A stretch of DNA of 64,000 nucleotides from Glycomyces sambucus (GTDB taxonomy: Bacteria; Actinomycetota; Actinomycetes; Mycobacteriales; Micromonosporaceae): positions 62,001 to 126,000 of the forward strand of contig NZ_FNGF01000007.1 in the NCBI RefSeq assembly GCF_900102815.1. Direction: 5' to 3'. Below are positions 26,980-48,401 of the stretch, in pieces. Positions within the stretch are counted from its first letter, which is position 1. Each line of letters begins with the position of its first letter. Made by a program: the position numbers and the translations under genes. Under the pieces are notes generated by a model. That model did no database searches and was not told where the DNA came from. It saw nothing but the letters and a program-made list of their open reading frames with translations.

Positions 26980-27212
26980 GAGACTGATTCCTTTCGTTCG
27001 CTAAGCGCCGCGCCCGGCAGTGCTCTCGAAGCACCGTGTGCTCGAAGGCGTCGCCGGGAGCGACTCGCATACTGTGCCCTTTTGCGGGCCTTCGGCCCCG
27101 GGCGTCCGGTCTCGGAGGACCGGGAGATGCCGCGCCGAAGCGCAACCTCTCGATTATGCCTGGTCAAGGGACCTGCGGCGAACGGCGGGGTGGGGATGAG
27201 GCAGGCGACACA
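26980..27212 (-). promoter_or_regulatory. rpsE leader and promoter region
   Basis: About 230 bases without a gene between rpsE and the GH43 terminator. It contains the rpsJ-like promoter element at 27136-27165, with CATAAT (27153-27158, complement) as probable -10, a leader of about 165 bases, and a small GGGCC-TTC-GGCCC hairpin. Position implies it drives rpsE-rpmD-rplO. Confidence 0.6.
27136..27165 (-). promoter_or_regulatory. Promoter element shared with the S10 operon
   Basis: On the minus strand GACCAGGCATAAT, then AGGTTGCG after four bases, nearly identical to the element upstream of rpsJ at 56838-56866. CATAAT is the likely -10. The -35 position (TTCGCC at 18 bases) is weak. Confidence 0.6.
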
Positions 27213-27245
27213 GGCCGCCGCGGGACGGCGGGTCCCGCGGCGGCC
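27213..27245 (-). terminator. Terminator of the GH43 gene, island boundary
   Basis: Perfect 14-bp stem GGCCGCCGCGGGAC with complement and 5-base loop, 16 bases after the GH43 stop. It insulates the rpsE promoter from the island. Confidence 0.8.
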
Positions 27246-27260
27246 TCCTTCGCTTCCGCG

Positions 27261-28718
27261 CTACCGGACGGTGACGGTCCAGCGCTGGTTCGCGGCGCCG
27301 GTGCAGGCGCTCTGGACGATCGCGGCGCCGTCGGCGGTGGAGGCGCCGCTGACCGAGAGGCACAGCCCGGAGTGCTGGGCCACGATCAGGTGGCCGCCGC
27401 CGGCGGCGGCGCGGAGGGCGAAGCGCTGGTTGCCCCCGGCCCAGCAGCCCCACTGGCCGACGGGGGCGCCGACGGCGGTGGACTGGTCGAGCACGTCCCA
27501 GCACTTGCCGGTGGCGGTGTTGGCGATGGAACCGACCTTGGAGCCGGGGTAGACGGGGTCGAAGGTGAACGCCTGGGGCGCGCCGTTCCAGCAGCCGTAC
27601 TGGATGAGCGCGGTCCCGTCCGCGCCGGAGCCGGAGGGCACGTCGACGCACTTGCCCGAGCCGGCGTTGACGAACTTGGTCGAGTACGGGCTGCCGTCGT
27701 CGTTGCCGACGACGCCCTGGACGGTGCCCGCGGCGGCGTCGATGTTCAGGGTCGAGTACCAGGTCAGGCTCATGCTCGTGCTGCTGGGGAAGCTGATCGG
27801 GAGCCACACGTACTCGGAGTCCATGGGCTTGCCGCCCCACTGGGGTCCCCAGCGGTCGCCCATGTAGAGGTAGCTGGTGCCGGCGGTGCCCTGGACGGTG
27901 GTGACGTAGGTCGGCTGGGAGCCGAAGGTGGTGGAGTTCCCGGCGTTGGACCAGCCGGACCAGGCGCCCTCGGGGAAGTTGGTGGTGGTGGCGTACTGGG
28001 TCTGGTTGGCGTTCCAGCCGGTGGCGCCGGAGGTCACCAGGAAGTAGACCCCGTTGCGCACGAATACGGCCGGGGCCTCGCGGTGGTAGCCGTCGAAGAC
28101 GTGCACGAGCTCGTCGATGGCGAGGAAGTCGTCGGTGAGGCGGTAGACGTTGAGGTCGTAGTTCACGTCGGCGGCGGAGATGAGGTAGCCGGTGCCGTCG
28201 GTGTCCACGAAGAGGGTCATGTCGCGGGAGTCGTAGCCCGCGGGGCGGAACGAGCCCCGGTAGTCGTAGTCGCCGGTGACGGTGTCGGAGACGGCCACGG
28301 CCACTTCGGCGTCGCCGTAGTCGACGCCGTTCTCCTTGTGCGCCCACAGGACGTACTTGCCGGTGTTCGGGTTGTAGACGACCTTGGGCCGCTCGATGTT
28401 GGCGGGCGAGAGGTCGGGGTCGGACTCGGCGCTGAGGATGTCGTTGCGGAACGTCCAGTTGACCAGGTCGGTGCTCGAGTACATCGAGACCTGGTCGAAG
28501 AGGTAGTCGTTGCGCTGCTCGCCGACGAGGTAGTAGGTGCTCCCGACCTTGAGCATGCCGCCGCCGTGGGCGTGCATGAGGTTGCCGGAGGTGTCGGTGA
28601 TGGCGCGGCCGTTGTCGAACGCCACGGGGGCGGCCTCGGCCGGCGCGGGGGCGCCGAGGCCGAGGACCGCGGTGGCGAGCGCGGTCGCCGCCGCGAGCGC
28701 GGCCATCCTTGAGGACAT
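27261..28718 (-). CDS. Secreted GH43-like galactanase/arabinanase with ricin-type lectin domain
   Basis: 485-residue secreted glycoside hydrolase. The signal peptide AALAAATALATAVLGLGAPA ends near residue 29. The five-bladed propeller domain (residues 30-330) begins HAHGGGMLKVGSTYYLVGEQ, the form seen in GH43 exo-beta-1,3-galactanases. A C-terminal CBM13/ricin-B domain carries three repeats with conserved Gln-x-Trp-like ends (QRWTV) and paired cysteines (GKCVDV, YGCW; GKCWDV, WGCW; GLCLSV, SACT). ATG 28718 has GAAGGAG upstream. Likely substrate is arabinogalactan side chains, by family only. Confidence 0.82.
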   Translation of the reverse strand: MSSRMAALAAATALATAVLGLGAPAPAEAAPVAFDNGRAITDTSGNLMHAHGGGMLKVGSTYYLVGEQRNDYLFDQVSMYSSTDLVNWTFRNDILSAESDPDLSPANIERPKVVYNPNTGKYVLWAHKENGVDYGDAEVAVAVSDTVTGDYDYRGSFRPAGYDSRDMTLFVDTDGTGYLISAADVNYDLNVYRLTDDFLAIDELVHVFDGYHREAPAVFVRNGVYFLVTSGATGWNANQTQYATTTNFPEGAWSGWSNAGNSTTFGSQPTYVTTVQGTAGTSYLYMGDRWGPQWGGKPMDSEYVWLPISFPSSTSMSLTWYSTLNIDAAAGTVQGVVGNDDGSPYSTKFVNAGSGKCVDVPSGSGADGTALIQYGCWNGAPQAFTFDPVYPGSKVGSIANTATGKCWDVLDQSTAVGAPVGQWGCWAGGNQRFALRAAAGGGHLIVAQHSGLCLSVSGASTADGAAIVQSACTGAANQRWTVTVR

Positions 28719-29173
28719 CGTCGTCTCCTTCGCTTGGGCCCCACAGCGAGGGCCAGATTGATCGATTTCGATATTTGCACAGATCCCCCTTCTTGTAAAG
28801 ACCCTTCGTCTAACGGGTTTAGTAACATATTCCTTCACATTCACCGGGAACCCGATAAAGCTACTTCCCAGTCATCCCCCGTTCGGGCAATTCTGCGAAG
28901 TCAACTACCCGACACTCGTCGCCGGAATTGTAATCGCGACTTGTCCGAATCGATCGGATACGCGCGAGACGTGCGCAATCCCGTACTCGCCCAAACTGGA
29001 CATTTACCGGACCCCAAGTGACGCACCGTGATCCCGAGCCGTGTTCGGCGGGACACATGACCTGCTCAGTCCTCGCTAAGGTGGTCCGTACAACCCCGAA
29101 CAGCCGAACGCACGACGCTCCATTGAAGAAGAGTCGATGCGCTTATCCGTCGTGCCTTCAGGAGGCTTATCGA
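28719..29173. other. AT-richer intergenic region between divergent genes
   Basis: 455 bases, visibly less GC-rich than the rest of the window, with no credible gene. It holds the GH43 promoter and palindrome (28761-28799, minus) and presumably the promoter of the gtrA operon. The composition could reflect dense regulatory sequence. Confidence 0.55.
28761..28799 (-). promoter_or_regulatory. GH43 promoter with overlapping palindromic operator
   Basis: On the minus strand TTTACA (28794-28799), 17-base spacer, AAATAT (28771-28776). The -10 is overlapped by the palindrome ATCGA-TT-TCGAT (28761-28772), a plausible LacI- or GntR-type site for sugar-induced control. Confidence 0.5.
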
Positions 29174-29668
29174 ATGCGTCGGCTCCGGCCGCAAGCGATG
29201 CGGCTCGCCCGATTCTCAGGCGTCGGCCTGACCTGTTTCGCAATTCAAGCCGGGATACTCCTGGCCCTGGGGCGCGCCGGCGTGCCCGGCCCGATCGCCA
29301 ATGCGACCGGGTTCCTCGCCTCGGCCCAGGTCAACTTCCTCTTGTCCACCTACGTCACCTGGTCCGACCGGCGCCTGCCGCGGGCCGAGCCCTGGGCCAG
29401 GCGCTGGCTCTCCTTCCAGGCCACCGTCGCGGTCAGCCTGGCCTGCAACACGGGCGTGTACGCCCTCGCCTCCGGGTTCCTGCCGCCGGTCGCCGCCGCC
29501 GCGGCGGGGGTGTGCGCCGGGGCCCTCCTCACCTACCTCGCGAGCGACCACCTCGTCTTCCGCCGCCGGAGGGCGGCCCAGACCGACCACTTTGGAGCTT
29601 CACTTGACGATCATCGCCGACCAGCCGCAGCACTCCCCGGTCCGAACGGCGGCCCCGCCGCCGACTGA
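29174..29668 (+). CDS. GtrA-like membrane protein
   Basis: 164-residue protein with four hydrophobic helices (FSGVGLTCFAIQAGILLALG, IANATGFLASAQVNFLLSTY, ATVAVSLACNTGVYALASGF, AAAAGVCAGALLTYLASDHL). The Asn/Ser/Phe-rich second helix and final DHLVFRRRR are typical of the GtrA family, proposed to help move polyprenyl-linked sugars across the membrane. ATG 29174 has AGGAGG upstream. It is first in a four-gene overlapping operon with two glycosyltransferases, which supports a role in glycan export. Confidence 0.85.
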   Translation: MRRLRPQAMRLARFSGVGLTCFAIQAGILLALGRAGVPGPIANATGFLASAQVNFLLSTYVTWSDRRLPRAEPWARRWLSFQATVAVSLACNTGVYALASGFLPPVAAAAAGVCAGALLTYLASDHLVFRRRRAAQTDHFGASLDDHRRPAAALPGPNGGPAAD

Positions 29669-31940
29669 CGGCGTCGCCGTGGTCATGCCCGCCTACCGCG
29701 AGGAGGCGAACGTCGCCGCCACGGTCCAGGACTTCCTGTCGACGCTCGTGCGCGAGGGGATCCCCCACGCGGTCGTCGTCGTCGACGACGGCTCGGACGA
29801 CCGCACCGGCGCGATCATCGACCGCCTCGCCGCGGCCCACCCCGGACGGGTGATCGCGGTCCACCACGAGCGCAACCAGGGCTACGGCGCCGCCGTGCGC
29901 TCGGGCCTGGAGGCCGCGCTGCGGCGCACCGGGTTCCGCGAGATCCTGCTGACCGACGCCGACTGCCAGTTCCGCGCCGAGGACCTGGTGCGCCTGCGGG
30001 AGAAGAAGAAGGAGGAGCGCGCCGACGCCGTCATCGGCTACCGCAGGCGCCGCGCCGACCCGTGGCGCCGCCGTCTCAACGCCAAGGTGTGGACGATCCT
30101 GTGCAAGACGCTGCTGCGCGTCCCCGGCCGCGACGTCGACTGCGCGTACAAGCTCATCGACCGCTCGCTGCTCCAGGACCTGCGCCTGTCCGGCGAGGCC
30201 GCCGCGATCTCCCCCGAGCTGCTGTGCCGCATCTCGGGCGACGGCGCCCGCATCGTCGAGCACCCCGTCGAGCACTACCCCAGAGAGCACGGCGAGCAGA
30301 CCGGCGCGCGCCTCTCGGTGGTCGTCAAGTCGCTCGTCAGCCTCGCGGTCGTCTACGGCCACATGGTCCGCGACGCCCGCCGCCTCGGCTGGGTCCGGCG
30401 CCTCGCGGCTCCCAAGGACCCCGGCGCGGCCCTCGTGGCGCTCGCCGCCTGCGTCGCCGCCGTCGTCGCGTACCTGTACTTCGCCGACCACGGGTACCTG
30501 CTCGCGTACAAGGACGCGAACTCGCACCTGCTCATCGCCAGGCGCGTGGTGGAGAGTCCGACGGCCGGGCTCGCCCAGCTCGGCGGCGTCTGGCTGCCGC
30601 TGCCGCACCTGCTCGCCGCGCCGCTGTCGCTGTGGGAGGGCCTGTACCTCAACGGGTTCGCCGGGGCGTTCGTATCGATGGCCTCGTACGTGGTGGCCGT
30701 GCGGTTCCTGTTCGCCCACGCCCGCTCGCTCTCGGGCCACTGGGCCGGCGGCCTCACCGCCGCGGGTCTGTTCGCCCTCAACCCGAACGTGCTGTACCTC
30801 CAGGCCACGGCCATGACCGAGCTGCTGCTGTTCGCGTGCGCGGTCGTGGCGGTCCACTACCTCCACGAGTGGTGCACCGAGGGGCGCATCAGGGACCTGT
30901 CGCTCGCCTCCGGCGCGGTCCTCGCCGCGACCCTGACCCGCTACGAGGGCTGGATCCTGTGCGCCGTCGCCGCCGCGATCGTCGCGTTCACCGCACTGCG
31001 CCGGCACCGCAGGTACGCCCACACCGAGGGGTCCCTCGTCGTGTTCGGCTTCGTCGCCGGCGCGGGCGTCCTCGGCTGGATGGCCTGGAACCTCGCGATC
31101 TTCGGCGACCCCATGAACTGGCGGTCCGGCGAGTACGCCGACTCCTCCCTGTGGGTCGCCGAGGGCGAGGCCAACGTCGGGTCGCTGCCGACCGCGATGG
31201 AGACCTACGGGCTCGCCTCGCTCCACAACCTCGGCATCGCCACGGCCGCACTAGGACTGGCCGGACTCGTCCTGTACGCGGTCCAGCGCCGGCTGCGCTC
31301 GCGGGCGCTCGTGCCCTACGCGATGCTCGTGTTCGCGCCGTTCTTCGTGTGGGCCCTGTACAGCGGGGAGCGCCCCCTCCACGTCAAGGAGGTCATGGGC
31401 GCCCTCTACAACGTGCGGTTCGGGCTCATCATGCTCATCCCCGCCGCGGTCTTCGCCGGGTACCTCGTCGGGAGGCTCGTCCCCCGCCTCCCCGGCAGGC
31501 GCATCGCGGCCGGGGCCCTCGCAGGAGCCGCCGTCGTCGGCGCCACCCTCGCCGTCGACGGCGCGGTCACCCTCGACGAGGCCGTCGAGTACCGCGCCAG
31601 CGGATGGGAGGCCGACAACGCCGCCGTCTCGCAGTGGCTGCGCGAGCACCACGACGGCGGGACCACCCTCATGATGTCCTTCGAGAACGAGTCGGTGACC
31701 TTCGAGTCCCAGGTGCCCACCGGGTCGCTGGTGTACGAGGGCTCCTACCGGATCTGGGAGGAGGCGCTCGCGGACCCGCACGCCGCGGGGGTCGAGTGGA
31801 TCTACATGCGGGCCACGCCCGGGGCCGAGGACGACGTCTGGGAGGCCCTGTGGGGCACCGAGGTCCTCGACGAGCACTACGACCTGGTCTACGACGAGGG
31901 CGACCGGCTCGTCTTCCGTGCCGAAGGCGGTGCCGCGTGA
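29604..31940 (+). CDS. Two-domain glycosyltransferase: GT2 head fused to GT-C-like membrane domain
   Basis: Membrane enzyme of 778 residues. The N-terminal GT2 domain resembles dolichol/polyprenyl-phosphate mannose synthases: VVMPAYREE, VVVDDGSDD near residue 62 and LTDADCQF near 117. From about residue 260 there are roughly a dozen hydrophobic helices. The loop YKDANSHLLIARRVVES near 300 and LGGVWLPLPHLLAAPL match a GT-C family of membrane mannosyltransferase-like proteins. It may therefore both make and use a lipid-linked sugar. The TTG at 29604 follows GGAG and overlaps gtrA by 65 bases. The N-terminal start is less certain than the domains. Confidence 0.8.
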   Translation: MTIIADQPQHSPVRTAAPPPTDGVAVVMPAYREEANVAATVQDFLSTLVREGIPHAVVVVDDGSDDRTGAIIDRLAAAHPGRVIAVHHERNQGYGAAVRSGLEAALRRTGFREILLTDADCQFRAEDLVRLREKKKEERADAVIGYRRRRADPWRRRLNAKVWTILCKTLLRVPGRDVDCAYKLIDRSLLQDLRLSGEAAAISPELLCRISGDGARIVEHPVEHYPREHGEQTGARLSVVVKSLVSLAVVYGHMVRDARRLGWVRRLAAPKDPGAALVALAACVAAVVAYLYFADHGYLLAYKDANSHLLIARRVVESPTAGLAQLGGVWLPLPHLLAAPLSLWEGLYLNGFAGAFVSMASYVVAVRFLFAHARSLSGHWAGGLTAAGLFALNPNVLYLQATAMTELLLFACAVVAVHYLHEWCTEGRIRDLSLASGAVLAATLTRYEGWILCAVAAAIVAFTALRRHRRYAHTEGSLVVFGFVAGAGVLGWMAWNLAIFGDPMNWRSGEYADSSLWVAEGEANVGSLPTAMETYGLASLHNLGIATAALGLAGLVLYAVQRRLRSRALVPYAMLVFAPFFVWALYSGERPLHVKEVMGALYNVRFGLIMLIPAAVFAGYLVGRLVPRLPGRRIAAGALAGAAVVGATLAVDGAVTLDEAVEYRASGWEADNAAVSQWLREHHDGGTTLMMSFENESVTFESQVPTGSLVYEGSYRIWEEALADPHAAGVEWIYMRATPGAEDDVWEALWGTEVLDEHYDLVYDEGDRLVFRAEGGAA

Positions 31941-33382
31941 ACCCCGACGCCCCGCCCGCGGGCCTGAGCGCCCAGCGGCTCCTCTCCCCCGGCCAGAGCG
32001 CGCTCGCGCTCTCGGTCGTCGGCTTCGTCGCCGGCGCGATCGCCGTCGACCTGCTCACCGGGTTCGGACCGAGCCCCCTGCAATGGGCGCAGGGCGGCAT
32101 GTTCGCCCTCATCGTCCTCTACCTGGCCGTCATCGGCTTCAAACTCGCGATGGTCCTGGGCTCGGGCCGGTCCACCGCGATGCGCTTCGAACCCGGTGCG
32201 CTGGAGACGTTCCCGGACTCCGAGCTGCCCCGGTACACGGTCCTGGTGCCGCTGTACCGCGAGGCCGCGGTCGTCCCCGGGCTCGTCCGGCGGCTCTCGG
32301 CCCTCGACTACCCGCAGGAGAAGCTGGAGATCCTCCTGCTCGTGGAGGCCGACGACGGCGAGACCCGGACCGCGCTCGCCGCGCAGGGCCTCGGCCCGGC
32401 GTTCCGCACGGTGGTCGTGCCCGACACGCAGCCGAAGACGAAGCCCAAGGCGTGCAACGTCGGACTCGCCCGCGCCACCGGCGAGCTGTGCGTCATCTTC
32501 GACGCCGAGGACCGGCCCGACCCCGACCAGCTCCGCAAGGCCGCGCTGGCGTTCCGGGTGCTCCCGGACCGGGTGGTGTGCGTCCAGGCCGAGCTCCAGT
32601 ACTGGAACCCGTGGACGAACTGGCTCACCCGGTGCTTCTCGGCCGAGTACGCCACGAACTTCAGCCTGACGCTGCACGGCATGGACCGGCACCGGCTCGC
32701 GATCCCCCTGGGCGGCACGTCGAACCACTTCCGGATCGACGCGCTGCGCGACCTCGGCGGGTGGGACCCGTTCAACGTCACCGAGGACGCCGACCTCGGC
32801 ATCCGCATCGCCCGGCGTGGCTGGGACGTGCGCATGATCGTCTCGGTCACCGAGGAGGAGGCCAACTCGGCGCTGGGCAACTGGATCCGCCAGCGCAGCC
32901 GGTGGATCAAGGGCTACCTCCAGACGTGGCTGGTGCACTCGCGGCAGCCGCTGAAACTGTGGCGGGAGCTGGGGACGAAGAAGACCCTGGCGATCCACCT
33001 GACGCTCGGCTTCTCGACGGTGACGACCCTCATCAACCCGCTCATGTGGGCGCTCACGCTGTCGTACTTCGTGTTCGGGCCGCAGTGGATGGAGCCGCTG
33101 TTCCCGCCGGTCGTGCTCTACGGGGGCATGTTCGCGATGATCGCCGGCAACGCGCTCATGTGCTACGCGCTCATGCTCGGCTGCCTCAAGCGCGGCCTGT
33201 ACGCGGCGGTGCGCGCGATGCTCACGGTGCCCTTGTACTGGGGGCTCATGAGCGTGGCGGCGTACAAGGCGTTCGGGCAGCTCCTGCGGCCCAGCAAGCG
33301 CCACTACTGGGAGCTGACGGTCCACGGGCTGGACACGTCGGACGAGATCGACGTCGACGAGGAGGTCGTGCGTGCGCGGTGA
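31937..33382 (+). CDS. Processive GT2 glycosyltransferase (cellulose synthase-like)
   Basis: 481-residue membrane glycosyltransferase. Two N-terminal helices precede a cytoplasmic catalytic domain with PLYREAAVVPGLV, VEADD near residue 141, FDAEDRPDP near 190, TEDADLGIR near 284 and QRSRWIKGY near 320, that is the D,D,D,QxxRW set of processive synthases. Three to four C-terminal helices follow. This implies a repeating polysaccharide extruded as it is made. The GTG start overlaps the previous stop (GTGA), so translation is coupled. Sugar specificity unknown. Confidence 0.87.
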   Translation: MNPDAPPAGLSAQRLLSPGQSALALSVVGFVAGAIAVDLLTGFGPSPLQWAQGGMFALIVLYLAVIGFKLAMVLGSGRSTAMRFEPGALETFPDSELPRYTVLVPLYREAAVVPGLVRRLSALDYPQEKLEILLLVEADDGETRTALAAQGLGPAFRTVVVPDTQPKTKPKACNVGLARATGELCVIFDAEDRPDPDQLRKAALAFRVLPDRVVCVQAELQYWNPWTNWLTRCFSAEYATNFSLTLHGMDRHRLAIPLGGTSNHFRIDALRDLGGWDPFNVTEDADLGIRIARRGWDVRMIVSVTEEEANSALGNWIRQRSRWIKGYLQTWLVHSRQPLKLWRELGTKKTLAIHLTLGFSTVTTLINPLMWALTLSYFVFGPQWMEPLFPPVVLYGGMFAMIAGNALMCYALMLGCLKRGLYAAVRAMLTVPLYWGLMSVAAYKAFGQLLRPSKRHYWELTVHGLDTSDEIDVDEEVVRAR

Positions 33383-36300
33383 ACGATGGGGCCGCCTGGC
33401 GGCCGGGATGGTCGTGGGGGCGGCGCTGCTGACGGCGCCGGGCGCAGCGGCGGAGGCCGCGCCCCCGGCGGAGTTCGAGCGGCTGCTGGTGGTCGGCGGC
33501 CTGGAGGAGCCGACGGCGTTCCGGTTCACGCCGGACGGCGACGTCCTGATCGCGGAGAAGAACGGCGCGATCCAGCTCCTGCACGACGGGGAGCTGCACG
33601 ACCACCCGCTCATCGAGCTGGCCACGGCCGGATCGGACGAGCGGGGGCTGCTGGGGATGGCGCTCGACCCGGACTTCGCGGCGAACGGGTACGTGTACGT
33701 GTACGTGGGATACACGGCCGCGGACAACCTGGACCGGTTGAGCCGCTTCACGATGACCGGGCACGAGATCGACCCGGACTCGGAACTGGTGCTGGTGCAG
33801 TCGCAGCAGGACGCGAACGTGTTCCACCACTCCGGGACCGTCGGGTTCGGCCCGGACGGGAAGCTGTACTGGACGCTCGGGATGAACACGAACAACCAGA
33901 ACCCGCCGAACCTGGGGAACGTGCACGGCAAGATGCACCGCATCAACGCGGACGGCACGGTCCCGGCGGACAACCCGTTCGTGGACACGCCGGGGGCGGA
34001 GCCCTCGGTGTGGGCGTACGGGCTGCGGAACTCGTTCCGGTGGGACTTCGTCCCCAGTGGACCCCATGCCGGGGACATCCTCGCCGGGGACGTGGGCGGC
34101 TCGGAGTTCGAGGAGCTCAACCTCATCGAGCGCGGCGCGAACTACGGGTGGCCGCACGTGGAGGGGGTGTGCGAGGACTGCCCGTACGCGCAGCCGGTGT
34201 ACACGTACCCGCACACGGCGCCGCCCGCGAGCGCGGGCTCGATCTCCGCGGTGGAGGTGTACGAGGGCGGGTTGCTCGGGGAGGCGTACGAGGACGCGGT
34301 GTTCATCGCGGACTACACGCTCGGTTTCGTGAAGTACCTGGAGATGGACGAGGCGTTCGAGTCGGTGGTGTCGGTGCACGACTTCGACACCGAGGCGGGC
34401 ACGCCCGTGGACCTCCAGACCGGCCCGGACGGGGCGCTGTACCAGTTGAACATCTACCCCGGTGAGCTGTACCGGATCGCGCCCTCCGGCGGGAACCGGA
34501 CGCCGGTCGCCGAGGCGAGCGCGACGCCGGACAACGGTTATGCGCCTCTGGAAGTGGCGTTCTCCTCCGGCGGTTCCTCGGACCCGGACGGGGACGCGTT
34601 GAGCTACGCGTGGGACTTCGGCGACGGGGACGGCTCGACCGAGGCGGACCCGGTGCACACGTACACCGAGGACGGCGTGTACCAGGCGGTGCTCACGGTC
34701 TCCGACGGCGACAAGTCGGCGCAGGCGCAGGTCGAGGTGCAGGTGGGGAACACCAGGCCCGAGGCGGTGATCCTGGCGCCGGAGGAGGGCCTGACGTACG
34801 ACGGCGGCGACGTGGTCGCGTTCTCGGGCGAGGCGGCCGACCCCGAGGACGGGGCGCTGGCCGCGGCGGCGCTGTCGTGGACGGTGCAGTTCCACCACGC
34901 CGACCACGTGCACCCGTTCTACGGCCCGGCCGAGGGCGCGTCGGGCGAGATCACGATCCCGCGGGCGCCGCACGGCGGCGACAACACGTTCTACCGGATC
35001 GCGCTGACGGCCACGGACTCCGGCGGACTGACGGACACGACCTATGTGGACGTGCACCCGAACACGGTGGAGGTGTCGATCGCGACCGATCCGGCGGGCC
35101 TGGAGTTCACGCTCGACGGCCGGCCGCTGGAGTCGACGACCAAGCGGATGGTGGTGGGCACCGAGTACGTGCTTGGCGCGGAGTCGCCGCAGTACGCCGA
35201 CGGGTCGCGGTTCGCGTTCGCGGGCTGGTCGACCGGGGCGGAGCGGCAGCACGTGTTCACCGTCCCCGGCGAGGACGCGTCGGTGACGGCCGAGTTCACG
35301 GAGCTGCCGTACCCGCCGGAGCCGTGGGAGGCCGCGGACATCGGGGAGCGGACCCAGTTGGGTCTCAGCAGCTTCGACCCGGAGGGCCCCGGCGGCGGCG
35401 CGTTCGCGGTGACCGGCGCGGGCTGGGACGTCTGGGACGCGACCGACGAGTTCCACTTCGTGCACCGGCCGCTGATCGGGGACGGGTCGATCACGGCGCG
35501 GCTGACCGCGCAGGAGGCGACGAACCCGTGGGCGAAGGCCGGGGTCATGGTGAAGGAGTCCGCGGAGGAGGGCGCGACGTACGCCGCCATCGCGGTGACC
35601 CCTGAGCACGGGGCGCACTTCCAGGCGGACTTCGGCACCGACGGGGGCGGCTTCGCGTACACCGAGGGCGCGGCGTGGCTGCGGCTGACGCGGACCGGGG
35701 ACCTGTTCACGGCCGAACTGTCGGCCGACGGCGAGACCTGGGAGGCCATCGGCTCGGCCGAGGTCCCGATGTCGGCGAGCGCGCGGGTGGGGCTGTTCGC
35801 CACCGCGCACGACAACACGCAGTTCTCCACGGCGGTCTTCGACTCGGTCGCGGTCGCCGCGGCGGACCCGGAGCTGACGTGCGAGGACGTGGGCGATCCG
35901 GCGGTCGCCGGCTCGGCGTCGTTCGAGGGCGGCACGGCGGCGCTCACCGGCGGCGGCGACGACATCTGGGGCGACGCGGACCAGTTCCACTTCTGCCACA
36001 GGGCCCTTGAGGGCGACGGCGAGATCATCGCGCGGGTCGTGTCGCTGGAGGACACGAACGACTGGGCCAAGGCCGGGGTCATGGTCAAGGCCGCGCCCGA
36101 GGAGGGCGCGGACTACGTCGCGGCCATGGCGACCTCGGCCGAGGGCGTGCACTTCCAGACCGGGTTCGACACTGATGCGGACGGACCGGACACGGCTGCG
36201 CCCGTGTGGCTCCGGCTGGTCAGGGAGGGGTCCCAGGTGACCGGGTACCACTCCCCCGACGGGCTCGCGTGGGAGCCGTTCGCCAGCGCGGTCCTGGAGG

Positions 36301-40288: not shown

Positions 40289-40338
40289 GGGTTTCGCTCC
40301 TGAGTTGGGGGTAGAGATGAGAACGTTCGGTCGGGCGG

Positions 40339-41412: not shown

Positions 41413-42366
41413 ATGCATGCAAGACTCGCCGTCGGCCTTGACGCCGGCGGAACCAGCAGCCGCGCCGTCCTCATCGATGAGAGCGGAGCGGTGCTCGGCA
41501 CCGGCGCGTCCGGTCCGGCCAACCCGGTGGGCGGCGACCGGGAGATCGCGCTGTCCAACATGGCCCTGGCGTTCCAGCGCGCGCTCGGCGGCATCGACCC
41601 GCGGGAGGTCGGCTCGGTGTGCGTCGGGACCGCGGGCGCGCTGTCGCTGACCGAGGAGGTGCGCGAGGTCTCGGCGGACCTCAAGCGGCGCTTCGGCACC
41701 GACTGCGAGGTGGAAGTGGTCTCGGACGCGGTGATCGCGTTCGCGGCCGGCTCCTCGGCCCCGGACGGGACCGTCATCGTCTCGGGCACCGGCGCGGTGG
41801 CGTTCGCGATCCGCGACCGCACGCCCGCGCTGCGCTCGGACGGGTACGGCTGGCTGTTCGGCGACGCCGGCTCCGGGTTCTGGCTCGGCCGCGAGGCGGT
41901 CCGGGCGGCGCTGCGGCACATCGACGGGAACGGCCCCGGGGGCCGGCTCGTCGAGGCGATCATCGCGGCCATCGCACCCGACAAGCGGCGCTCGGGCGCC
42001 CTGGTCGCCAAGTGCATGGCCGATCCCCCGGTGCGGTTGTCGCGCTTCGCGGCCCTGGTGTGCGAGGCCGCCGACGGCGGCGACGCCGTGGCCGAGTCCA
42101 TCGTGGCGCGGGCCGTCGGCCACCTGGCCGAGTCGGTCTCGTACGTCGTCGACCGCGAGCTGCCGATCGTCATGGCCGGCAGCCTCCTCACCCGACCCAC
42201 CCCCATCGCCGCGCTCCTCCAGGAGCGCTTCCGGCTGGTCTACCCCAAGGCCGGCATCAGCAAGGCCACCGATCCCGCCATCGGCGCGGCCTGGATGGCC
42301 GCCAGCGCGTTCGTCACCGACCCCGCCGAGCGCGTCCGGCTCCACCGCCAGCTCGCCTGGCGCTGA
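41413..42366 (+). CDS. nagK: N-acetylglucosamine / N-acetylmuramic acid kinase, BadF/NagK family
   Basis: Cytoplasmic ASKHA-fold sugar kinase of 317 residues. The phosphate-1 motif is GLDAGGTSSRAVLID, phosphate-2 region VIVSGTGAVAFAI, with GYGWLFGDAGSGFWLGREAV between; the adenosine motif is near IVMAGSLL. The family phosphorylates GlcNAc and in some members MurNAc at C6 (NagK/MurK). With MurQ nearby, its product would feed the etherase if it acts on MurNAc. Divergent from a MurR regulator. Substrate range needs assay; the symbol is by family. Confidence 0.85.
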   Translation: MHARLAVGLDAGGTSSRAVLIDESGAVLGTGASGPANPVGGDREIALSNMALAFQRALGGIDPREVGSVCVGTAGALSLTEEVREVSADLKRRFGTDCEVEVVSDAVIAFAAGSSAPDGTVIVSGTGAVAFAIRDRTPALRSDGYGWLFGDAGSGFWLGREAVRAALRHIDGNGPGGRLVEAIIAAIAPDKRRSGALVAKCMADPPVRLSRFAALVCEAADGGDAVAESIVARAVGHLAESVSYVVDRELPIVMAGSLLTRPTPIAALLQERFRLVYPKAGISKATDPAIGAAWMAASAFVTDPAERVRLHRQLAWR

Positions 42367-42565
42367 ATCGAATCACCGCCCCCACCGAGCCCACCCGCCC
42401 CCGCACGCACGCCGCCCCCATCACCGGCGCCCGAGCGGGGGCGGCCCCGTTCCACCGCACGTGCCGCGCTTCCACGAGCCGCGGGCGCCGACTTCGCTCC
42501 GCATCCCCGGCCGACCCCGGCTCTCGCGCTCCCGGCGGCCTGGTGACAGCTGGCCCACCGCAGCC

Positions 42566-42621
42566 GGGGCTGCGGGGCTGCGGGGCTGCGGGGCTGCGGG
42601 GCTGCGGGGCTGCGGGGCTGC
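42566..42621. repeat. Octamer tandem array, 7 x GGGGCTGC
   Basis: Seven perfect, uninterrupted copies of GGGGCTGC (56 bases), followed directly by the first 36-base direct repeat. A likely length-variable locus. Confidence 0.95.
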
Positions 42622-42623
42622 GA

Positions 42624-42659
42624 CATGTCATACCCCTCGGGCACTGTTGATCCGGGGGC
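42624..42659. repeat. 36-base direct repeat, copy 1
   Basis: Starts CATGTCATACC and ends GTTGATCCGGGGGC. It matches copy 2 at 33 of 36 positions (differences at bases 7, 12 and 15). Confidence 0.9.
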
Positions 42660-42764
42660 CGCACCGCTGCCGCCGGCTTCGGCGTGCCCGCGGAACCACA
42701 TTCCGGAAACCGCGCCCCCGAAATCGCACCCCTGAAAACCGCCCACGCCAGCGCAACGGACGCC

Positions 42765-42800
42765 CATGTCGTACCTCTAGGGCACTGTTGATCCGGGGGC
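42765..42800. repeat. 36-base direct repeat, copy 2
   Basis: Starts CATGTCGTACC and ends GTTGATCCGGGGGC, 105 bases after copy 1. Two copies at irregular spacing do not make a CRISPR; a dispersed REP-like element is more likely. Confidence 0.9.
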
Positions 42801-42831
42801 GGCCGGCGGCCGTCCCCGAACTGGGGTGCCC

Positions 42832-43758
42832 TCAGCCCGCCAGCGCCCCCGAGAGCCGTCCGTCCGCCAGCGCGAGGCGCGCTTCGGCCGCCGCCGCGTC
42901 GATGCCGAGTTCGAGCATCACCACGGCGGTCTTCACGCGGTCGCCCGACGCCGCCAGCGCGGCCTCGGCCTCCTCCTGCCCGGCCCCGGTGATCTCGCGG
43001 ATCATCCGCACCGCCCGCGCGGCGAGCTTCTGGTTCGCGACCTTCATGTCCACCATGTAGTTCCGGTAGACCTTCCCGAGCCGCACCATGCTGATCGTCG
43101 ACACCATGTTGAGCACGAACTTCTGCGCCGTCCCCGACTTCAGCCGCGTCGACCCGGCCACCACCTCGGGCCCGACCTCCACCTCGATCCGGTGCTCGGC
43201 CGCGTCCGAGAGCACCGTGCCGGTGTTGCACGACAGCCCCACCGTCAGCGCCCCCCGCCGCCGCGCCTCGCGCACGGCCGCCACCACGAACGGGGTCCGC
43301 CCGCTCGCGGCCAGGCCCACGACGGCGTCGGCCGGGCCGATCCCGTCCGCCGCGATGGCGGCCTCGCCCGCGGCCTCGTCGTCCTCGGTCCCCTCGACCG
43401 CGCCGCCCTCGGCGGCCTTGCCCCCGGCGATGATCGCCTTGATGAACTCGGGTTCGGTCGAGAACGTCGGCGGGCACTCGGCGGCGTCCATCACCGCCAT
43501 CCGCCCGGCGGTCCCCGCGCCCACGTACCGCAGGCGCCCGCCCTTCGCGAGCCGGTCGGCGACGGCGTCGATCGCGGCGGCCACCTCGGGGAGCACGGCC
43601 GCGACGGCGGCGGATACGCTCGCATCGGCCTCGTTCATGGTCCTCGCCAGGTCGAGGGTCGACAGCTCCTCGATCCCCGCGTAGCGCGGGTCGGCCCGCT
43701 CGGTCGCCAGCATGGCCAACAGGGTGCGCGCTTCAAGGCGCTCGGTCGGTTCACTCAC
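42832..43758 (-). CDS. murQ: N-acetylmuramic acid 6-phosphate etherase
   Basis: Cleaves the lactyl ether of MurNAc-6-phosphate, giving GlcNAc-6-phosphate and D-lactate in cell-wall recycling. It has 308 residues. SIS-fold signatures are clear: YVGAGTAGRMAVMDAAECPP with the catalytic Glu, AIIAGGKAAEGGAVEGTEDD with the second acidic site, LAASGRTPFV and LKSGTAQKFVLNMVST. The GTG at 43758 begins the conserved region; a far longer upstream frame is a shadow. Divergent from murR with a palindrome between them. Confidence 0.96.
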   Translation of the reverse strand: MSEPTERLEARTLLAMLATERADPRYAGIEELSTLDLARTMNEADASVSAAVAAVLPEVAAAIDAVADRLAKGGRLRYVGAGTAGRMAVMDAAECPPTFSTEPEFIKAIIAGGKAAEGGAVEGTEDDEAAGEAAIAADGIGPADAVVGLAASGRTPFVVAAVREARRRGALTVGLSCNTGTVLSDAAEHRIEVEVGPEVVAGSTRLKSGTAQKFVLNMVSTISMVRLGKVYRNYMVDMKVANQKLAARAVRMIREITGAGQEEAEAALAASGDRVKTAVVMLELGIDAAAAEARLALADGRLSGALAG

Positions 43759-43792: not shown

Positions 43793-43860
43793 CTCACCCA
43801 GGATCGCCTGAAGAATCGCGCCGACCCGTGGTGCCGCCGCGGCGGGTGTACCGTGACGTC

Positions 43861-44742
43861 ATGCCAGCAAGCCGCACCGACACGCCCAACCTCCTGGTGC
43901 TCATCAAGTCGGTCCTGCCCTCGTTGTCGAAGGCCGAGACCAAGGTCGCCCAAGAGATCATCCGCGAGCCCGAGGCCGCCTCGACGCGGACCATCACCGA
44001 ACTCGCCCGCGCCGCGGGCACCTCCGAGGCCACCGTCGTGCGCTTCTGCCGCTCCCTCGGCCTCGCCGGCCACCGCGAGCTGCGCATGCGCGCCGCCCAG
44101 GCCGTCATCGGCACCGGCGACGGGCCCGACCGCGAGATCGCCGGCGGCGACATCCCCACCGGGGCCGACATGTCCCGCATCATCGCCACGGTCTCGTACG
44201 CCGACATGGGCGCGATCACCGACACCGCGAACGCCCTCGACACCGCGGCGTGCGAGGCGGCCGTCGCCGCCCTGGCCGCGGCCGGGCGCATCGACGTGTT
44301 CGGGGTCGAGGCGTCGGGCATCGTCGCCGCCGACCTCGTCAAGAAGCTGCACCGCATCGGCTCGGTCGCGTTCTCGTGGCCCGACGTCCACGCCGCCCTC
44401 GTCGCGAGCGCCCTCGCCGGCCCCAAGGACGTCGCCGTCGCGATCTCCCACTCCGGCGCGACCACCGAGACCGTGGAGTTCCTGGAGGCCGCCCGCGACC
44501 GGGAGGCCGTCACCATCGCGATCACCAACCACGCCCGGTCCCCGCTGGCGCAGGCCGCGGACCTGGTCCTCACCACCGCCGCGCGGGAGACGACGTTCCG
44601 GTCCGGGGCCACCGTCAGCCGCATCGCGCAGCTCATGGTCGTCGACTGCCTGTTCGTGGGGGTCGCGGCCAAGCAGCGCAAGCGCACCGCGAAGGCGCTC
44701 GCGGCGACCGCGGCCGCGGTCTCGCACCGGCAGCGGACGTGA
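43861..44742 (+). CDS. murR: MurR/RpiR family regulator of MurNAc-6P etherase
   Basis: 293-residue regulator with HTH_6 (ELARAAGTSEATVVRFCRSL) near residue 45 and a SIS domain (VFGVEASGIVAADLV, VAISHSGATTETVEFLEAA) near 130-230. It is divergent from murQ, the arrangement of MurR elsewhere, and likely senses MurNAc-6-phosphate or GlcNAc-6-phosphate. ATG 43861 is preferred to an upstream in-frame GTG at 43828. Paralogue of the regulator near ngcE, roughly alignable throughout. Confidence 0.91.
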   Translation: MPASRTDTPNLLVLIKSVLPSLSKAETKVAQEIIREPEAASTRTITELARAAGTSEATVVRFCRSLGLAGHRELRMRAAQAVIGTGDGPDREIAGGDIPTGADMSRIIATVSYADMGAITDTANALDTAACEAAVAALAAAGRIDVFGVEASGIVAADLVKKLHRIGSVAFSWPDVHAALVASALAGPKDVAVAISHSGATTETVEFLEAARDREAVTIAITNHARSPLAQAADLVLTTAARETTFRSGATVSRIAQLMVVDCLFVGVAAKQRKRTAKALAATAAAVSHRQRT

Positions 44743-44743
44743 C

Positions 44744-44779: not shown

Positions 44780-44801
44780 AGCTTGCGCGCCTTCACCGGT
44801 C

Positions 44802-45503
44802 TTACCGGTCGCGGGCCGCCTCGACCTCGTCCCGCAGCCGCGGGAGCCGGTCGTGGAAGATCCCGGGGCACTGGGTCGAGTTGAAGTCCATGTGCCCGTA
44901 GATCTCGCTCGACGGGACGCCGTACTGCTCGCAGGCGAACGCGCACAGCGTCACCAGCGACTCCCACTGGGCCGCGGGCGGGACCGCCCCCGCATGGTAC
45001 GAGCCCTCGTTGGAGATCCCGATCGCGGAGCCGTTCTGGCCCGAGGTGTGGATGCCCATGATGAAGCGCTGCCCGGACATGAGCGCGGCGAGGCTCCCGG
45101 TGGTGCCCTCGGTGATCCAGCCGCCGCGGCTGACGACGAAGTTGTAGCCGGAGTCGCGCCAGCCGTTGCCGTCCATGTGTAGGTCCTGCACCCACTTCGC
45201 GTGGGCGTGGGCCTGCGCGCGGGAGAAGTCCGCGGTGTTCGGCGAGACCGTGTGGTGCACGATGAGCTTCGCCGGGCTCCCCTGGATGACGGGGTTGGTG
45301 CCGTTGGGGCGCCGCGCGCCCCACTCGGTGGTCGAGTCGACGTCGGGTTCTACTGCGGCCGTGCCGAACTCGGCCGGTTCGTACGCTTCGCCGTTCACGC
45401 CGGTCGCGGCGTGCGCGGGCGCGGCGGCGAGGCCGGTGGCCCCGGCGGCGAGGAGGGCGCCGGTCCCGAACAGGACCCGGCGCCGGATGCGGTGGTCGTC
45501 CAT
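44802..45503 (-). CDS. Secreted N-acetylmuramoyl-L-alanine amidase (PGRP/Amidase_2)
   Basis: Zinc amidase of 233 residues that separates stem peptides from MurNAc. A signal peptide with twin arginines (RIRRRVLFGTGALLAAGATG, Tat-like) precedes the Amidase_2 domain. Zinc ligands fit LIVHHTVSP (His), GHMDFNSTQCPG (His and Cys) near residues 204 and 212. ATG 45503 has GGGAGG upstream. It lies between the lysozyme gene and murR; joint action with the lysozyme and NagZ would release sugars for the NgcEFG importer. Confidence 0.9.
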   Translation of the reverse strand: MDDHRIRRRVLFGTGALLAAGATGLAAAPAHAATGVNGEAYEPAEFGTAAVEPDVDSTTEWGARRPNGTNPVIQGSPAKLIVHHTVSPNTADFSRAQAHAHAKWVQDLHMDGNGWRDSGYNFVVSRGGWITEGTTGSLAALMSGQRFIMGIHTSGQNGSAIGISNEGSYHAGAVPPAAQWESLVTLCAFACEQYGVPSSEIYGHMDFNSTQCPGIFHDRLPRLRDEVEAARDR

Positions 45504-45559
45504 GGTCTGCCTCCCGGGACGCCGCGGGCCGGGCCCGGCGGCCCGGCCCGCGCGTCGCA

Positions 45560-46333
45560 CTAGGTGTTGTTCGCCAGCGCGAGGAGTCGCGAGGCCGAGC
45601 CGTTGAAGTAGTTCCGGTCCACGTTCCCGGAGATGCCCGAGACCGATCCGGTGGACGTGTACTGCCAGAACGTCCAGGTCGTGTTGTTCCACCCGGCGGG
45701 CAGCGAGGGGGCCGAGACGCCCCAGTGCGCGATCCACAGCGGGCTCTTGGAGGCCATGCCGGTCCACGAGCCGGTGCAGGTGTTCCACCACGAGGCGGTC
45801 GTGTAGATGACGACGTCGCGGCCGGTGCGGGACTTGTACGTGTTGTAGAAGTCGGTGATCCAGTTGCGCATCGAGGTGGTGCTCAGCCCGTAGCAGGCCG
45901 CGCCCGAGGGCGGGGCCTCCAGGTCGAGCGCGCCCGGGAGGGTGAGCCCGTCGGCCGACCAGGCGCCGCCGTTGCTGGCGAAGAAGTTCGCCTGCGCGGC
46001 GCCGGTGGAGGAGTTGGGGCGCGCGAAGTGGTAGGCGCCGCGGATGACGCCCGCGGCGTGCGCGGCCGGGTAGTTGGTGTTGAAGCGGGCGTCCCTGAAG
46101 GTGGTGCCCTCGGTGGCCTTGATGTAGGCGAACTGGATCCCGGAGTTCTTGACGGAGGTCCAGTTGATGGAGCCCTGGTAGTTCGAGACGTCGATGCCCG
46201 CCAGGCCCTGGGCCTGGGCGGGGCTCGCGACGGCGAGTCCGGTCGCGGTCATGACCGCGGAGAGGAGGACCACGACCGCGGCGCGCAGCCCGTGGCGTCT
46301 TCTGAGGTTGCGGAGGGTGGCGAAGAGGTTCAC
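45560..46333 (-). CDS. Secreted GH25 lysozyme
   Basis: 257-residue muramidase (Chalaropsis/cellosyl type) cutting MurNAc-GlcNAc bonds. Signal peptide AAVVVLLSAVMTATGLAVAS. The GH25 fold starts GIDVSNYQGSINW with the conserved Asp; the catalytic acid region is LPGALDLEAPP near residue 138, and WIAHWG and TWTFWQYTSTGSVSGI complete the signature. No separate binding domain. GTG start with CAGGGAGC. Upstream lie two palindromes, one MurR-like. Confidence 0.93.
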   Translation of the reverse strand: MNLFATLRNLRRRHGLRAAVVVLLSAVMTATGLAVASPAQAQGLAGIDVSNYQGSINWTSVKNSGIQFAYIKATEGTTFRDARFNTNYPAAHAAGVIRGAYHFARPNSSTGAAQANFFASNGGAWSADGLTLPGALDLEAPPSGAACYGLSTTSMRNWITDFYNTYKSRTGRDVVIYTTASWWNTCTGSWTGMASKSPLWIAHWGVSAPSLPAGWNNTTWTFWQYTSTGSVSGISGNVDRNYFNGSASRLLALANNT

Positions 46334-46403
46334 ACGATGCTCCCTGCTTGTCAGGAGATCTCACAATTGGGTGGAGTGCCGGGTTTGGCACCTGGCCCCA
46401 GTA

Positions 46404-46418
46404 TGGAGACAATCTCCA
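46404..46418. promoter_or_regulatory. Palindrome upstream of the lysozyme gene
   Basis: TGGAGA-CAA-TCTCCA, 6-bp perfect arms, 71 bases before the lysozyme start. Possible repressor site for an unidentified regulator. Confidence 0.5.
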
Positions 46419-46434
46419 CAATCAGTCAAGCCTG

Positions 46435-46449
46435 TGAAAATAACTTTCT
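46435..46449. promoter_or_regulatory. Second candidate MurR operator (lysozyme)
   Basis: TGAAAATAACTTTCT matches the murQ site TGAAGTAAAATTTCA at ten of 15 positions, including the outer GAA and TTC. About 100 bases before the lysozyme start. Confidence 0.45.
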
Positions 46450-46469
46450 GTCCTGTGGTCGCGGGCGTG

Positions 46470-48275
46470 CTAGGGGTAGCCGATGCCGTGGCCCAGGGGG
46501 TACAGGACGTCGCCTGCGGCGCTGGGGACGTCGACCGGGAGCGTCCCGCTCGGCGCGAGGTTCCCGGCGATGGCCTTCGCGAGGGCTTCGAGCGAGGGCG
46601 CGGCGTAGGAGTACGCGGCGAGGCTCGCGTTGACGGCGCCGAGGTGCGCGGCGTCGTAGGGGGTCCCGACCGCGGCGGTGACGACGGGCGCGGGCCCGTC
46701 GAGGAGGGCCGCGACGAGGTCGGCCTGCGGGGAGCCGGCGCGCACGTTCCGGGTGGCGACCACGACGAGGTCGCGTCCGGCGGCGGCGGCCGCGGCGGCC
46801 CCGATCGCGGCGGCGCCCGGGTCGTCCCCGGTGACGTGGGCTTCGGCGTCGAACCCTTGGGCGGCAAGCGCTTCGGCGAGGAGCCGGGTGGTGTTCTCGC
46901 CCCAGCCGGTCACCAGGACCGAGCCGCCCGCGAACGGCAGCGTGCCGTCGTTGGCCAGGAGCGTGACCGAGCGGTCGGCGATGTCCGCGGCGGCGGCGCG
47001 GTGCGCTTCGGACCCGACCGCCTCAGCGGCGGCGCCCTCGTCGGTCTCGGGAGCGTCCACAATGCCGTGGCGGGTCTTCAATTCGAGGATGCGGCGCACC
47101 GATGCGTCGATGCGCGCCTCGGTGAGTTCACCGGAGGCGACGGCGTCGAGCACGGCCTGGTGCGCGAGCGGGAGGTCCGGGGGCATCAGGAGCAGGTCGG
47201 CGCCGGCGAGGAGCGCGAGGACCGGGACGCGGTCGTCGCCGTACTCGGTGCGCACCCCCTGCATGTCGAGCGCGTCGGTGACCACCACGCCGGTGAACCC
47301 GAGCCGCTCGCGCAGCAGCCCGGTGAGGATCGGGTGCGAGAGCGTCGCGGGCTTGAGCGAGTCGTCCAGGGCCGGGAACTGCAGGTGGGCCGACATGACC
47401 ATGTCGGTGCCGGCGGCGATCGCGGCCGTGAACGGCGGGGCGTCGATCCGCTCCCACTCCTCGGCGGTGTGCGTGATGACCGGCAGGCCCACGTGGCTGT
47501 CGGTCCCGGTGTCGCCGTGCCCGGGGAAGTGCTTGGCGGAGACGGCCACGCCCCCGGCCTGGTACCCGCGCACCTGCGCGGCGGCGAACTCGGCCACGAG
47601 CGCCGGGTCGGAGCCGAACGACCGGACCCCGATCACGGGGTTCGCGGGGTCCACATTGACATCGGCGTCGGGCGCGAAATTGTGGTTCAGGCCCATCGCT
47701 CGCAATTCCGAACCGGCGATCTCGGCGGCCCGCTCGGCCGCGTCGAGGTCCCGGGTGGCCCCCAGCGGCATCGCCCCGGGGAACTGCGTGGCGGGCTCGC
47801 CGATGCGCACGACCGAGCCGTACTCCTGGTCGGTGGCGATGAGCAGCGGCACGGTCGAGGCGGCCTGGAGGCCGTTCGAGAGCGCCGCGACCTGCTCGGG
47901 CCCGGTGAGGCCGTTGGCCCAGTCGAAGTAGATGATCCCGCCGGGCCGGTACGCCTCGACGAACGCGGCCCCGGTGTCGGCCCCGAGCCGCTCCCGGTTC
48001 GCGGCGATCGCGTCCGCGTCGCCGGTGTCGGCGCTCTCGCCGTGCACGTACACCATGAAGAGCTGGCCGACCTTGTCCTCCAGGGACATCGACGCCATCA
48101 GGTCCCCCACGGGGTCCCCGGTCGGCTCCTCCACCGGATCCTCACCCCCGGGCTCGTCGTCGCGGTCGGCGGTCGCCTCGGCGACCACCACCCCGCCCCC
48201 GACGACCGCGAAGGCCGCCGTGACGCTGGAGAGCAGCACGGTCTTGCGGGAGACTTTCGCCGAACGCACCCGCAC
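46470..48275 (-). CDS. nagZ: Secreted or anchored GH3 beta-N-acetylhexosaminidase, NagZ-like
   Basis: 601-residue GH3 enzyme that releases terminal GlcNAc from muropeptides. An N-terminal hydrophobic segment (TVLLSSVTAAFAVVGGGVVVA) gives export or anchoring, followed by an acidic linker. The catalytic loop KHFPGHGDTGTDSH near residue 247 holds the His-Asp acid pair unique to NagZ, and the nucleophile is in VVTDALDMQG near 333. A C-terminal GH3 domain of about 190 residues follows (absent from short Gram-negative NagZ). GTG start. First of the NagZ-lysozyme-amidase series. Confidence 0.93.
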   Translation of the reverse strand: MRVRSAKVSRKTVLLSSVTAAFAVVGGGVVVAEATADRDDEPGGEDPVEEPTGDPVGDLMASMSLEDKVGQLFMVYVHGESADTGDADAIAANRERLGADTGAAFVEAYRPGGIIYFDWANGLTGPEQVAALSNGLQAASTVPLLIATDQEYGSVVRIGEPATQFPGAMPLGATRDLDAAERAAEIAGSELRAMGLNHNFAPDADVNVDPANPVIGVRSFGSDPALVAEFAAAQVRGYQAGGVAVSAKHFPGHGDTGTDSHVGLPVITHTAEEWERIDAPPFTAAIAAGTDMVMSAHLQFPALDDSLKPATLSHPILTGLLRERLGFTGVVVTDALDMQGVRTEYGDDRVPVLALLAGADLLLMPPDLPLAHQAVLDAVASGELTEARIDASVRRILELKTRHGIVDAPETDEGAAAEAVGSEAHRAAAADIADRSVTLLANDGTLPFAGGSVLVTGWGENTTRLLAEALAAQGFDAEAHVTGDDPGAAAIGAAAAAAAGRDLVVVATRNVRAGSPQADLVAALLDGPAPVVTAAVGTPYDAAHLGAVNASLAAYSYAAPSLEALAKAIAGNLAPSGTLPVDVPSAAGDVLYPLGHGIGYP

Positions 48276-48349
48276 ATCCTCGCGCAGACCCCCGGCGCCG
48301 CCGCATCCGGCCCCCGCCGGAAACGGCGCAAATCACCGTGAACACCACG

Positions 48350-48383
48350 AAGCCGGGCCGGAGCATTCGCTCCGGCCCGGCTT
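48350..48383 (-). terminator. Terminator after rplR, island boundary
   Basis: Perfect 14-bp stem AAGCCGGGCCGGAG with complement and 6-base loop, 18 bases after the rplR stop. It ends the S10/spc transcript where rpsE would normally follow. Confidence 0.8.
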
Positions 48384-48401
48384 GCGAGTCGTCCTAGCGG
48401 A

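Follow-up and report, generated by a model that had tools for sequence, protein, structure and literature searches.

How can an operon that is hardly ever broken come apart from within? The spc series rplF-rplR-rpsE-rpmD-rplO has one of the best conserved gene orders known in bacteria. In the stretch of Glycomyces sambucus DNA considered here (64,000 nucleotides of contig NZ_FNGF01000007.1 of assembly GCF_900102815.1, positions 62,001 to 126,000, called the window below), the spc operon is interrupted between these two genes, which encode ribosomal proteins L18 and S5 and each have a single match in the genome. The two share a strand and are separated by 21.4 kb that holds 15 genes, nine on the rplR strand and six (a kinase, the regulator RpiR2, a glucose/sorbosone dehydrogenase, a GtrA-like protein and two glycosyltransferase open reading frames (ORFs)) on the opposite one. 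An initial annotation of the window had pointed out this separation, and Pfam matches and ORFs agree with it. Comparison with related genomes makes it probable that the operon was broken in two steps, a transcriptional split coming first and the insertion of a gene cluster into the resulting gap second.

The division of the spc operon in Glycomyces

When 22 Glycomyces genomes were searched for L18 and S5, rplR and rpsE were found on one contig in 12, with 10.9-64.8 kb between the matches, and on two contigs in 10. They are adjacent in none: all 22 genomes lack the arrangement of an intact spc operon, in which rpsE lies directly 3' of rplR. In eight of the ten two-contig genomes both contigs end within the stretch that was read; in G002 the rplR contig extends 25.7 kb past rplR, its final 7 kb lying outside that stretch. 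The genomes are mostly drafts, and the different contigs in those ten could suggest an assembly error; however, because the same interruption, with the same flanking genes and with both ribosomal genes and the cluster on a single contig, is present in 12 of the 22 separate species assemblies, it is due neither to chance nor to misassembly, and we regard the latter as ruled out, with a probability that is negligible.

Outside the genus the two genes stay close together. A family sample of 121 genomes contains eight Glycomyces, and of the other 113, five have no L18 match (four of these also have no S5 match). In the remaining 108 the pair lies on one contig, at most 1392 nt apart, and in 105 of them at most 316 nt apart; the three wider gaps belong to G046, G033 and G034. 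In a phylum sample of 148 genomes with completeness of at least 95%, one of which has no L18, 18 to 274 nt separate the rplR and rpsE matches in 146 of 146 non-Glycomyces genomes. Likewise, among 80 named loci retrieved for the similarity of their RpsE proteins, rplR is within 218 nt of rpsE in 74, and the other six are Glycomyces. The synteny search that had been proposed as a check thus finds the genes apart in every one of the 22 Glycomyces genomes and in no genome of another genus that has both (108 in the family sample, 146 in the phylum sample), in keeping with the original idea of an old rearrangement. (A record titled Glycomyces fuscus TRM 49117, L067, has rplR and rpsE adjacent and falls in the tree with the outgroups, not with Glycomyces; it is probably misnamed. 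In locus L187 of G046, which is not of the Glycomyces line, the gap has widened to about 1 kb.)

Up to the contig ends, the genes 3' of rplR follow one order in Glycomyces: GH3, GH25, amidase, RpiR2 (reversed), MurQ, kinase (reversed), RpiR1, substrate-binding protein and two permeases. RpiR2 and MurQ are present in all 22 genomes, GH3 and GH25 in 21 each (GH3 was not found in G021, nor GH25 in G018), and the amidase in 15. The kinase, the substrate-binding protein and both permeases are present in 20, the two misses (G007 and G013) being contig ends; the count of 22 for RpiR1 includes cross-matches to RpiR2 in these same two genomes. Given these tallies and this order, the 21.4 kb interval of the window consists of a shared core of about 11 kb and a remainder of additions.

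The interval carries no mark of a mobile element. As had been proposed, the inserted genes look native in composition (G+C content in 2 kb windows is 0.67-0.74 in the interval vs 0.65-0.75 in the entire window), no integrase or transposase is found by Pfam among its 15 proteins, and no direct repeat of at least 24 nt pairs its two edges. Two inverted pairs do reach into rpsE or rplR; they are 72-74% complementary, and the other arm lies inside the block.

An uninterrupted arrangement in two sister genera

In a tree of nine ribosomal-operon proteins, for which many Glycomyces rows are incomplete, the successive relatives of Glycomyces are G033, G034 and the g5 genomes, with supports of 96-100; G028 and G046 branch next after g5. 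Neither G033 nor G034 has the insertion. Each has a gap of 1.1-1.4 kb between rplR and rpsE in which no gene was seen, and a search of these gaps for remnants of the cluster proteins gave no significant match (best E 0.12); decayed cluster genes were therefore rejected as their content.

The cluster itself is present in G034 at another site, about 200 kb from rplR, where GH3, amidase, RpiR2, MurQ, kinase, RpiR1, substrate-binding protein and both permeases have the same order and orientation as in Glycomyces. GH25 is missing there, and a NamZ protein (the family of the ybbC product) and a beta-lactamase-fold protein are included. Identity to the Glycomyces proteins is 66-80% for RpiR2, MurQ, RpiR1, the substrate-binding protein and the permeases, and 45-54% for GH3, amidase and kinase.

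One could also read the long, apparently gene-free gaps, the displaced cluster of G034 and the failure to find a full-length MurQ match in G033 as traces of an earlier insertion. The cluster would then have entered in the ancestor that Glycomyces shares with G033 and G034, to be deleted in G033 and moved in G034; the gaps would be scars, and the rpsE promoter would have come with the insertion. This is unlikely, since it requires one insertion and two removals and is thus less simple than an account in which promoter and hairpin came first, insertion second and growth third, which is the simplest; nor does any significant cluster-protein trace remain in the gaps, although old scars decay.

A second alternative is that the cluster arrived in the Glycomyces ancestor by horizontal transfer straight into the spc gap, with no move within the chromosome. 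The unsettled donor site would fit such a transfer, as would the conjugation-type element that occupies the same interval in G006 and the regions around MurQ in other genera: in nine of these besides G034 the full cluster was not seen, only parts of it, such as an RpiR gene beside MurQ (two of the stretches were ended by contig ends). However, the same gene order in so close an outgroup and the higher of the identities given above fit vertical descent (those of GH3, amidase and kinase being only 45-54%), and the composition is native, so that direct transfer appears rather improbable. The right flank of the G034 cluster, a flavodoxin-fold and PfkB pair, is found together at another place in G004 and G006, with no permease beside it. 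This fits a site that was left or one that was empty, and does not settle the direction.

Sequence elements at the two edges

Three conserved elements frame the interval. The first is a hairpin directly 3' of rplR, a candidate terminator, which follows the rplR stop in 22 of 22 Glycomyces with z scores of -4.7 to -8.9 (100 mononucleotide shuffles, 70 nt). G034 has it too (z -9.0), and in G033 an inverted repeat spans about 110 nt after rplR. A consensus scan of window positions 48200-48500 gave neither a promoter nor a terminator.

The second element is a promoter-like core, GCATAAT-N4-AGGTTG, 5' of rpsE. The scan covered 25 regions, of which L044 alone gave no result. The core is found in 21 of the 22 Glycomyces, in 18 exactly and in G005, G018 and G019 with one or two changes; in the remaining one, G007, the contig begins inside rpsE and there is no upstream sequence. 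It also precedes rpsE in G033 (exact) and G034 (one change), and was not found 5' of rpsE in G022. With at most one mismatch, 0.01 copies are expected per 12 kb stretch of G033 or G034, and the single copy in each precedes rpsE; in the window 0.00 are expected and two are present, the other lying 5' of rpsJ, the start of the S10 operon. When 11 whole genomes were searched with the exact pattern and a spacer of 3-5 nt, each of four Glycomyces had exactly two matches, at rpsJ and rpsE. Among the other seven there was one match at rpsJ in each of G066, G025 and G034, one at rpsE in G033, two in G085 (at rpsJ and elsewhere) and none in G022 and G029; the reversed pattern, used as a control, gave zero matches in all 11 genomes.

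The third element is a structured leader between the promoter core and rpsE. In an alignment (A1) of 19 Glycomyces rows with G033 and G034, which omits the window copy and one duplicate, 96.7% of the cells of the leader stem are paired, and 14 double-change cells are seen vs 4.2 in shuffles, with 0 of 500 shuffles as high. A model (R1), also built without the window copy, matches between rplR and rpsE in G025 (E 4e-8), G028 (6e-8), G114 (0.02), G046 (0.03) and G066 (0.06); among the g5 genomes the element is present in three of five and is not in G085 or G101. At whole-genome scale the matches in G046 (E 0.5) and G066 (E 0.9) are weak, and that in G025 stays at 6e-7. In the other family regions searched R1 has no match between rplR and rpsE (a partial match in G054 lies elsewhere). 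Because R1 finds the element between rplR and rpsE in related genera, the leader predates the split. A search of Rfam with window positions 26900-27300 gave eight matches up to E 5, none above the gathering score; the element may regulate rpsE translation.

A proposed two-step break of an essential operon

These comparisons allow a history to be proposed, with its steps ordered by parsimony and the three elements taken as a predicted terminator, promoter and leader. Before Glycomyces arose, the spacer between rplR and rpsE would have widened, a hairpin would have stood 3' of rplR, and 5' of the older leader rpsE would have gained a promoter whose core is that of the S10-operon promoter. Genes up to rplR and genes from rpsE on would then have become two transcription units. 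In the Glycomyces ancestor, an existing murein-recycling cluster of about 11 kb would have been placed, by some recombination event, in the spacer, by then neutral, that runs from the hairpin to the rpsE promoter. Finally, in sub-lineages, more genes would have entered between the last permease gene and that promoter. The fullest form of this account, in which an S10-class promoter and a terminator inside spc opened the operon and left both halves with the same promoter type before genes invaded, the sister genera keeping the intermediate and the structured RNA of the rpsE leader being older than the split and perhaps regulating translation, is put forward tentatively; as a whole, we are about as ready to doubt it as to accept it.

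Several observations weigh against the promoter-first history. On the rplR side, the 70 nt that follow rplR in G033 score no better than z -2.1, strong hairpins (z below -4.5) also follow rplR in 2 of 18 other family genomes (G028 and G114; no rplR end was obtained for 3 of the 20 family regions in this comparison), and a scan based on T-runs found no terminator after rplR. On the rpsE side, the rpsJ copy of the core reads GCATACT in G001 and G033, and in seven genomes the rpsE and rpsJ promoters are weakly alike outside the core (p 0.007 to 0.88 upstream, 0.15 to 0.80 downstream); a likeness of this degree does not establish duplication of the S10 promoter as the source of the rpsE promoter. 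The gaps of G033 and G034 do match Glycomyces by BLAST over 70-90 nt (81-86%, best E 6e-14). These matches span the leader element and the first part of rpsE, are weaker or absent for many genomes (none for G034 vs the window), and lie downstream of the promoter core, so that they were rejected as the promoter region; because they miss the core, it is this short motif that carries the promoter link. As to the cluster, the lack of a full-length MurQ match in G033 has been mentioned, and the left flank of the G034 cluster, an ATPase gene, has no match at E 1e-60 in six other genomes searched, so that it points to no donor site.

Arguments on how rarely broken operons break usually start from end states. 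In the present case three stages (a wider spacer with the leader, a promoter-bearing gap of 1 kb, and an invaded gap that later grew) fall within a single short stretch of the tree, and for that reason the order of the steps is testable by transcript mapping in culturable relatives. The Glycomyces case suggests how a break within an operon can become cheap beforehand.

The murein-recycling core

The features of the interval and its flanks are collected in Table 1.

Table 1. Features in and around the interval between rplR and rpsE (window positions)
Feature	Position	Strand	Basis and remarks
Second copy of the promoter-like core, 5' of rpsJ (S10 operon)	56844-56860	-	Only other exact copy in this genome
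rplF, abuts rplR	48797-49336		ORF call; named by eye
rplR (L18), last gene of upstream spc half	48402-48797	-	Pfam L18p E 4e-47
Strong hairpin, candidate terminator	48351-48382	-	Sequence
GH3 beta-N-acetylglucosaminidase, NagZ/YbbD-like	46470-48275	-	Pfam GH3 E 5e-84
GH25 muramidase	45560-46333	-	Pfam E 7e-58
Amidase_2 N-acetylmuramoyl-L-alanine amidase	44802-45500	-	Pfam E 5e-18; start codon provisional
RpiR2, MurR/RpiR-type regulator, divergent from murQ	43828-44742	+	Pfam HTH_6, SIS; NCBIfam MurR/RpiR below cut-off
murQ, N-acetylmuramic acid (MurNAc)-6-phosphate etherase	42832-43740	-	TIGR00274 340.6 bits, cut-off 302; start codon provisional
BadF-family sugar kinase	41413-42366	+	Pfam
RpiR1, second MurR/RpiR-type regulator	40339-41271	-	Pfam HTH_6 and SIS; NCBIfam models below cut-off
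NgcE-type N-acetylglucosamine (GlcNAc)/diacetylchitobiose substrate-binding protein	38891-40300	-	TIGR03851 531.3 bits, cut-off 399.65; start approximate
ATP-binding cassette (ABC) transporter permease 2	37940-38863	-	Pfam BPD_transp_1
ABC transporter permease 1, last core gene	37050-37904	-	Pfam BPD_transp_1; start approximate
Glucose/sorbosone dehydrogenase-PKD-DUF1349 protein, accessory	33372-36953	+	Pfam; at least 7/22 genomes
GtrA-like, GT2/PMT-like and GT2 glycosyltransferase ORFs, accessory	29018-33382	+	Pfam; at least 7/22 genomes
GH43 with ricin-type lectin domain, accessory	27261-28844	-	Pfam; at least 13/22 genomes
rpsE promoter-like core GCATAAT-N4-AGGTTG	27143-27159	-	Motif scan
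Structured leader element 5' of rpsE	26994-27074	-	R1 match E 4e-6; covariation
rpsE (S5), first gene of downstream spc half	26341-26979	-	Pfam S5 N/C domains E 2e-26, 2e-29
rplO, 3' of rpsE	25672-26145		ORF call; named by eye from translation
secY, after rplO	24085-25479		ORF call; named by eye from translation

The core is a coherent cluster for the recycling of murein and of GlcNAc/MurNAc sugars. It contains MurQ and two MurR/RpiR regulators, of which RpiR2 is adjacent to murQ; both regulators are above the Pfam thresholds and below the cut-off of the NCBIfam MurR equivalog. For the release of MurNAc it has the Amidase_2 protein and the GH3 protein; the latter, in which an N-terminal hydrophobic segment is seen by eye, has Bacillus subtilis YbbD/NagZ as its best match in PDB (E 2e-91) and misses the NCBIfam hexosaminidase cut-off (PRK05337, 172.8 bits vs 207). 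For uptake and phosphorylation the substrates are predictions: the score of the binding protein indicates GlcNAc/chitobiose, and the BadF-family kinase, whose best PDB match is a MurNAc/GlcNAc kinase (8zo3, E 1e-22) and which scores 116.5 bits against the NagK cut-off of 370 in NCBIfam, is a probable GlcNAc/MurNAc kinase. The block has no gene for a transporter ATPase; in actinobacteria, sugar ABC importers often rely on a shared one. The core is predicted to break down murein by secreted enzymes, to take up GlcNAc/MurNAc sugars and to convert MurNAc-6-phosphate.

Might the position of these genes be adaptive, with read-through from rplR or the place on the chromosome coupling murein recycling to growth rate? 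The core is kept beside rplR in 22 of 22 genomes, and the longest GH3 ORF begins 126 nt 3' of rplR on the same strand. Yet a strong hairpin stands between rplR and the core in every one of these genomes, the core has two MurR-type regulators of its own, and its order also exists at another site in G034; such coupling is very improbable.

In G012, the tenth of the two-contig genomes, the gene for the substrate-binding protein is cut exactly between residues 113 and 114. Its two parts lie on L145 (G012:C10) and L146 (G012:C30), and each contig continues for over 80 kb past the cut; either a rearrangement or a misassembly could account for this. In the window, tandem 8-nt repeats (42565-42622) and, nearby, a pair of 39-nt repeats (42624-42803) lie between the genes for the kinase and MurQ.

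Comparison with known systems

A search of the available literature gave no paper pairing Glycomyces with 'ribosomal protein operon' or with 'rpsE'. A 2021 study (PMC8046335) followed the ribosomal operon cluster in 204 genomes of Proteobacteria, Acidobacteria, Firmicutes and Tenericutes. According to that study, 77 of 115 rearrangement events were traced to gene insertions, 75 of the 115 left operons intact, and sudden breaks most likely cost fitness; the word 'promoter' is absent from its main text. The Glycomyces interval resembles the cases described there in that genes of another pathway are inserted in the cluster and later rearrangements widen the break. It differs in that the break lies inside the spc operon, in Actinomycetota, with an order kept in 22 of 22 genomes and with relatives that show an apparent promoter-first intermediate.

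As for the core, PMC5061867 gives the MurNAc recycling cluster of B. subtilis as murQ-murR-murP-amiE-nagZ-ybbC. Shared with it are MurQ, a MurR-type regulator, an amidase and NagZ. In place of MurP, the transporter of the phosphotransferase system, the Glycomyces core has a BadF-family kinase and an ABC transporter whose binding protein is of the NgcE type; it also has two regulators and a GH25 protein, and lies inside the spc operon. In Streptomyces coelicolor, according to the same paper, murQ adjoins a MurR-like regulator in SCO4305-4308 as it does in the Glycomyces core; this cluster is smaller and lacks a MurP transporter.

Additions on the rpsE side

The remainder of the interval consists of the dehydrogenase, glycosyltransferase and GH43 genes, all of them additions on the rpsE side. 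Because contigs are broken, the counts for GH43 (13 of 22) and for the dehydrogenase and glycosyltransferase genes (7 of 22) are lower bounds. In G004, G014, G017 and G019 the last permease gene and rpsE have no other gene of the window between them. In G006 (L134-L137; G006:C59:71000-139500), about 52 kb separate GH43 from rpsE, and the 10 of 45 ORFs scanned in this extra stretch include type IV secretion coupling and TraG-like ATPases, a T2SSE-family ATPase and a serine recombinase. The same stretch also carries two helix-turn-helix/DUF5753 regulators, one of them near rpsE.

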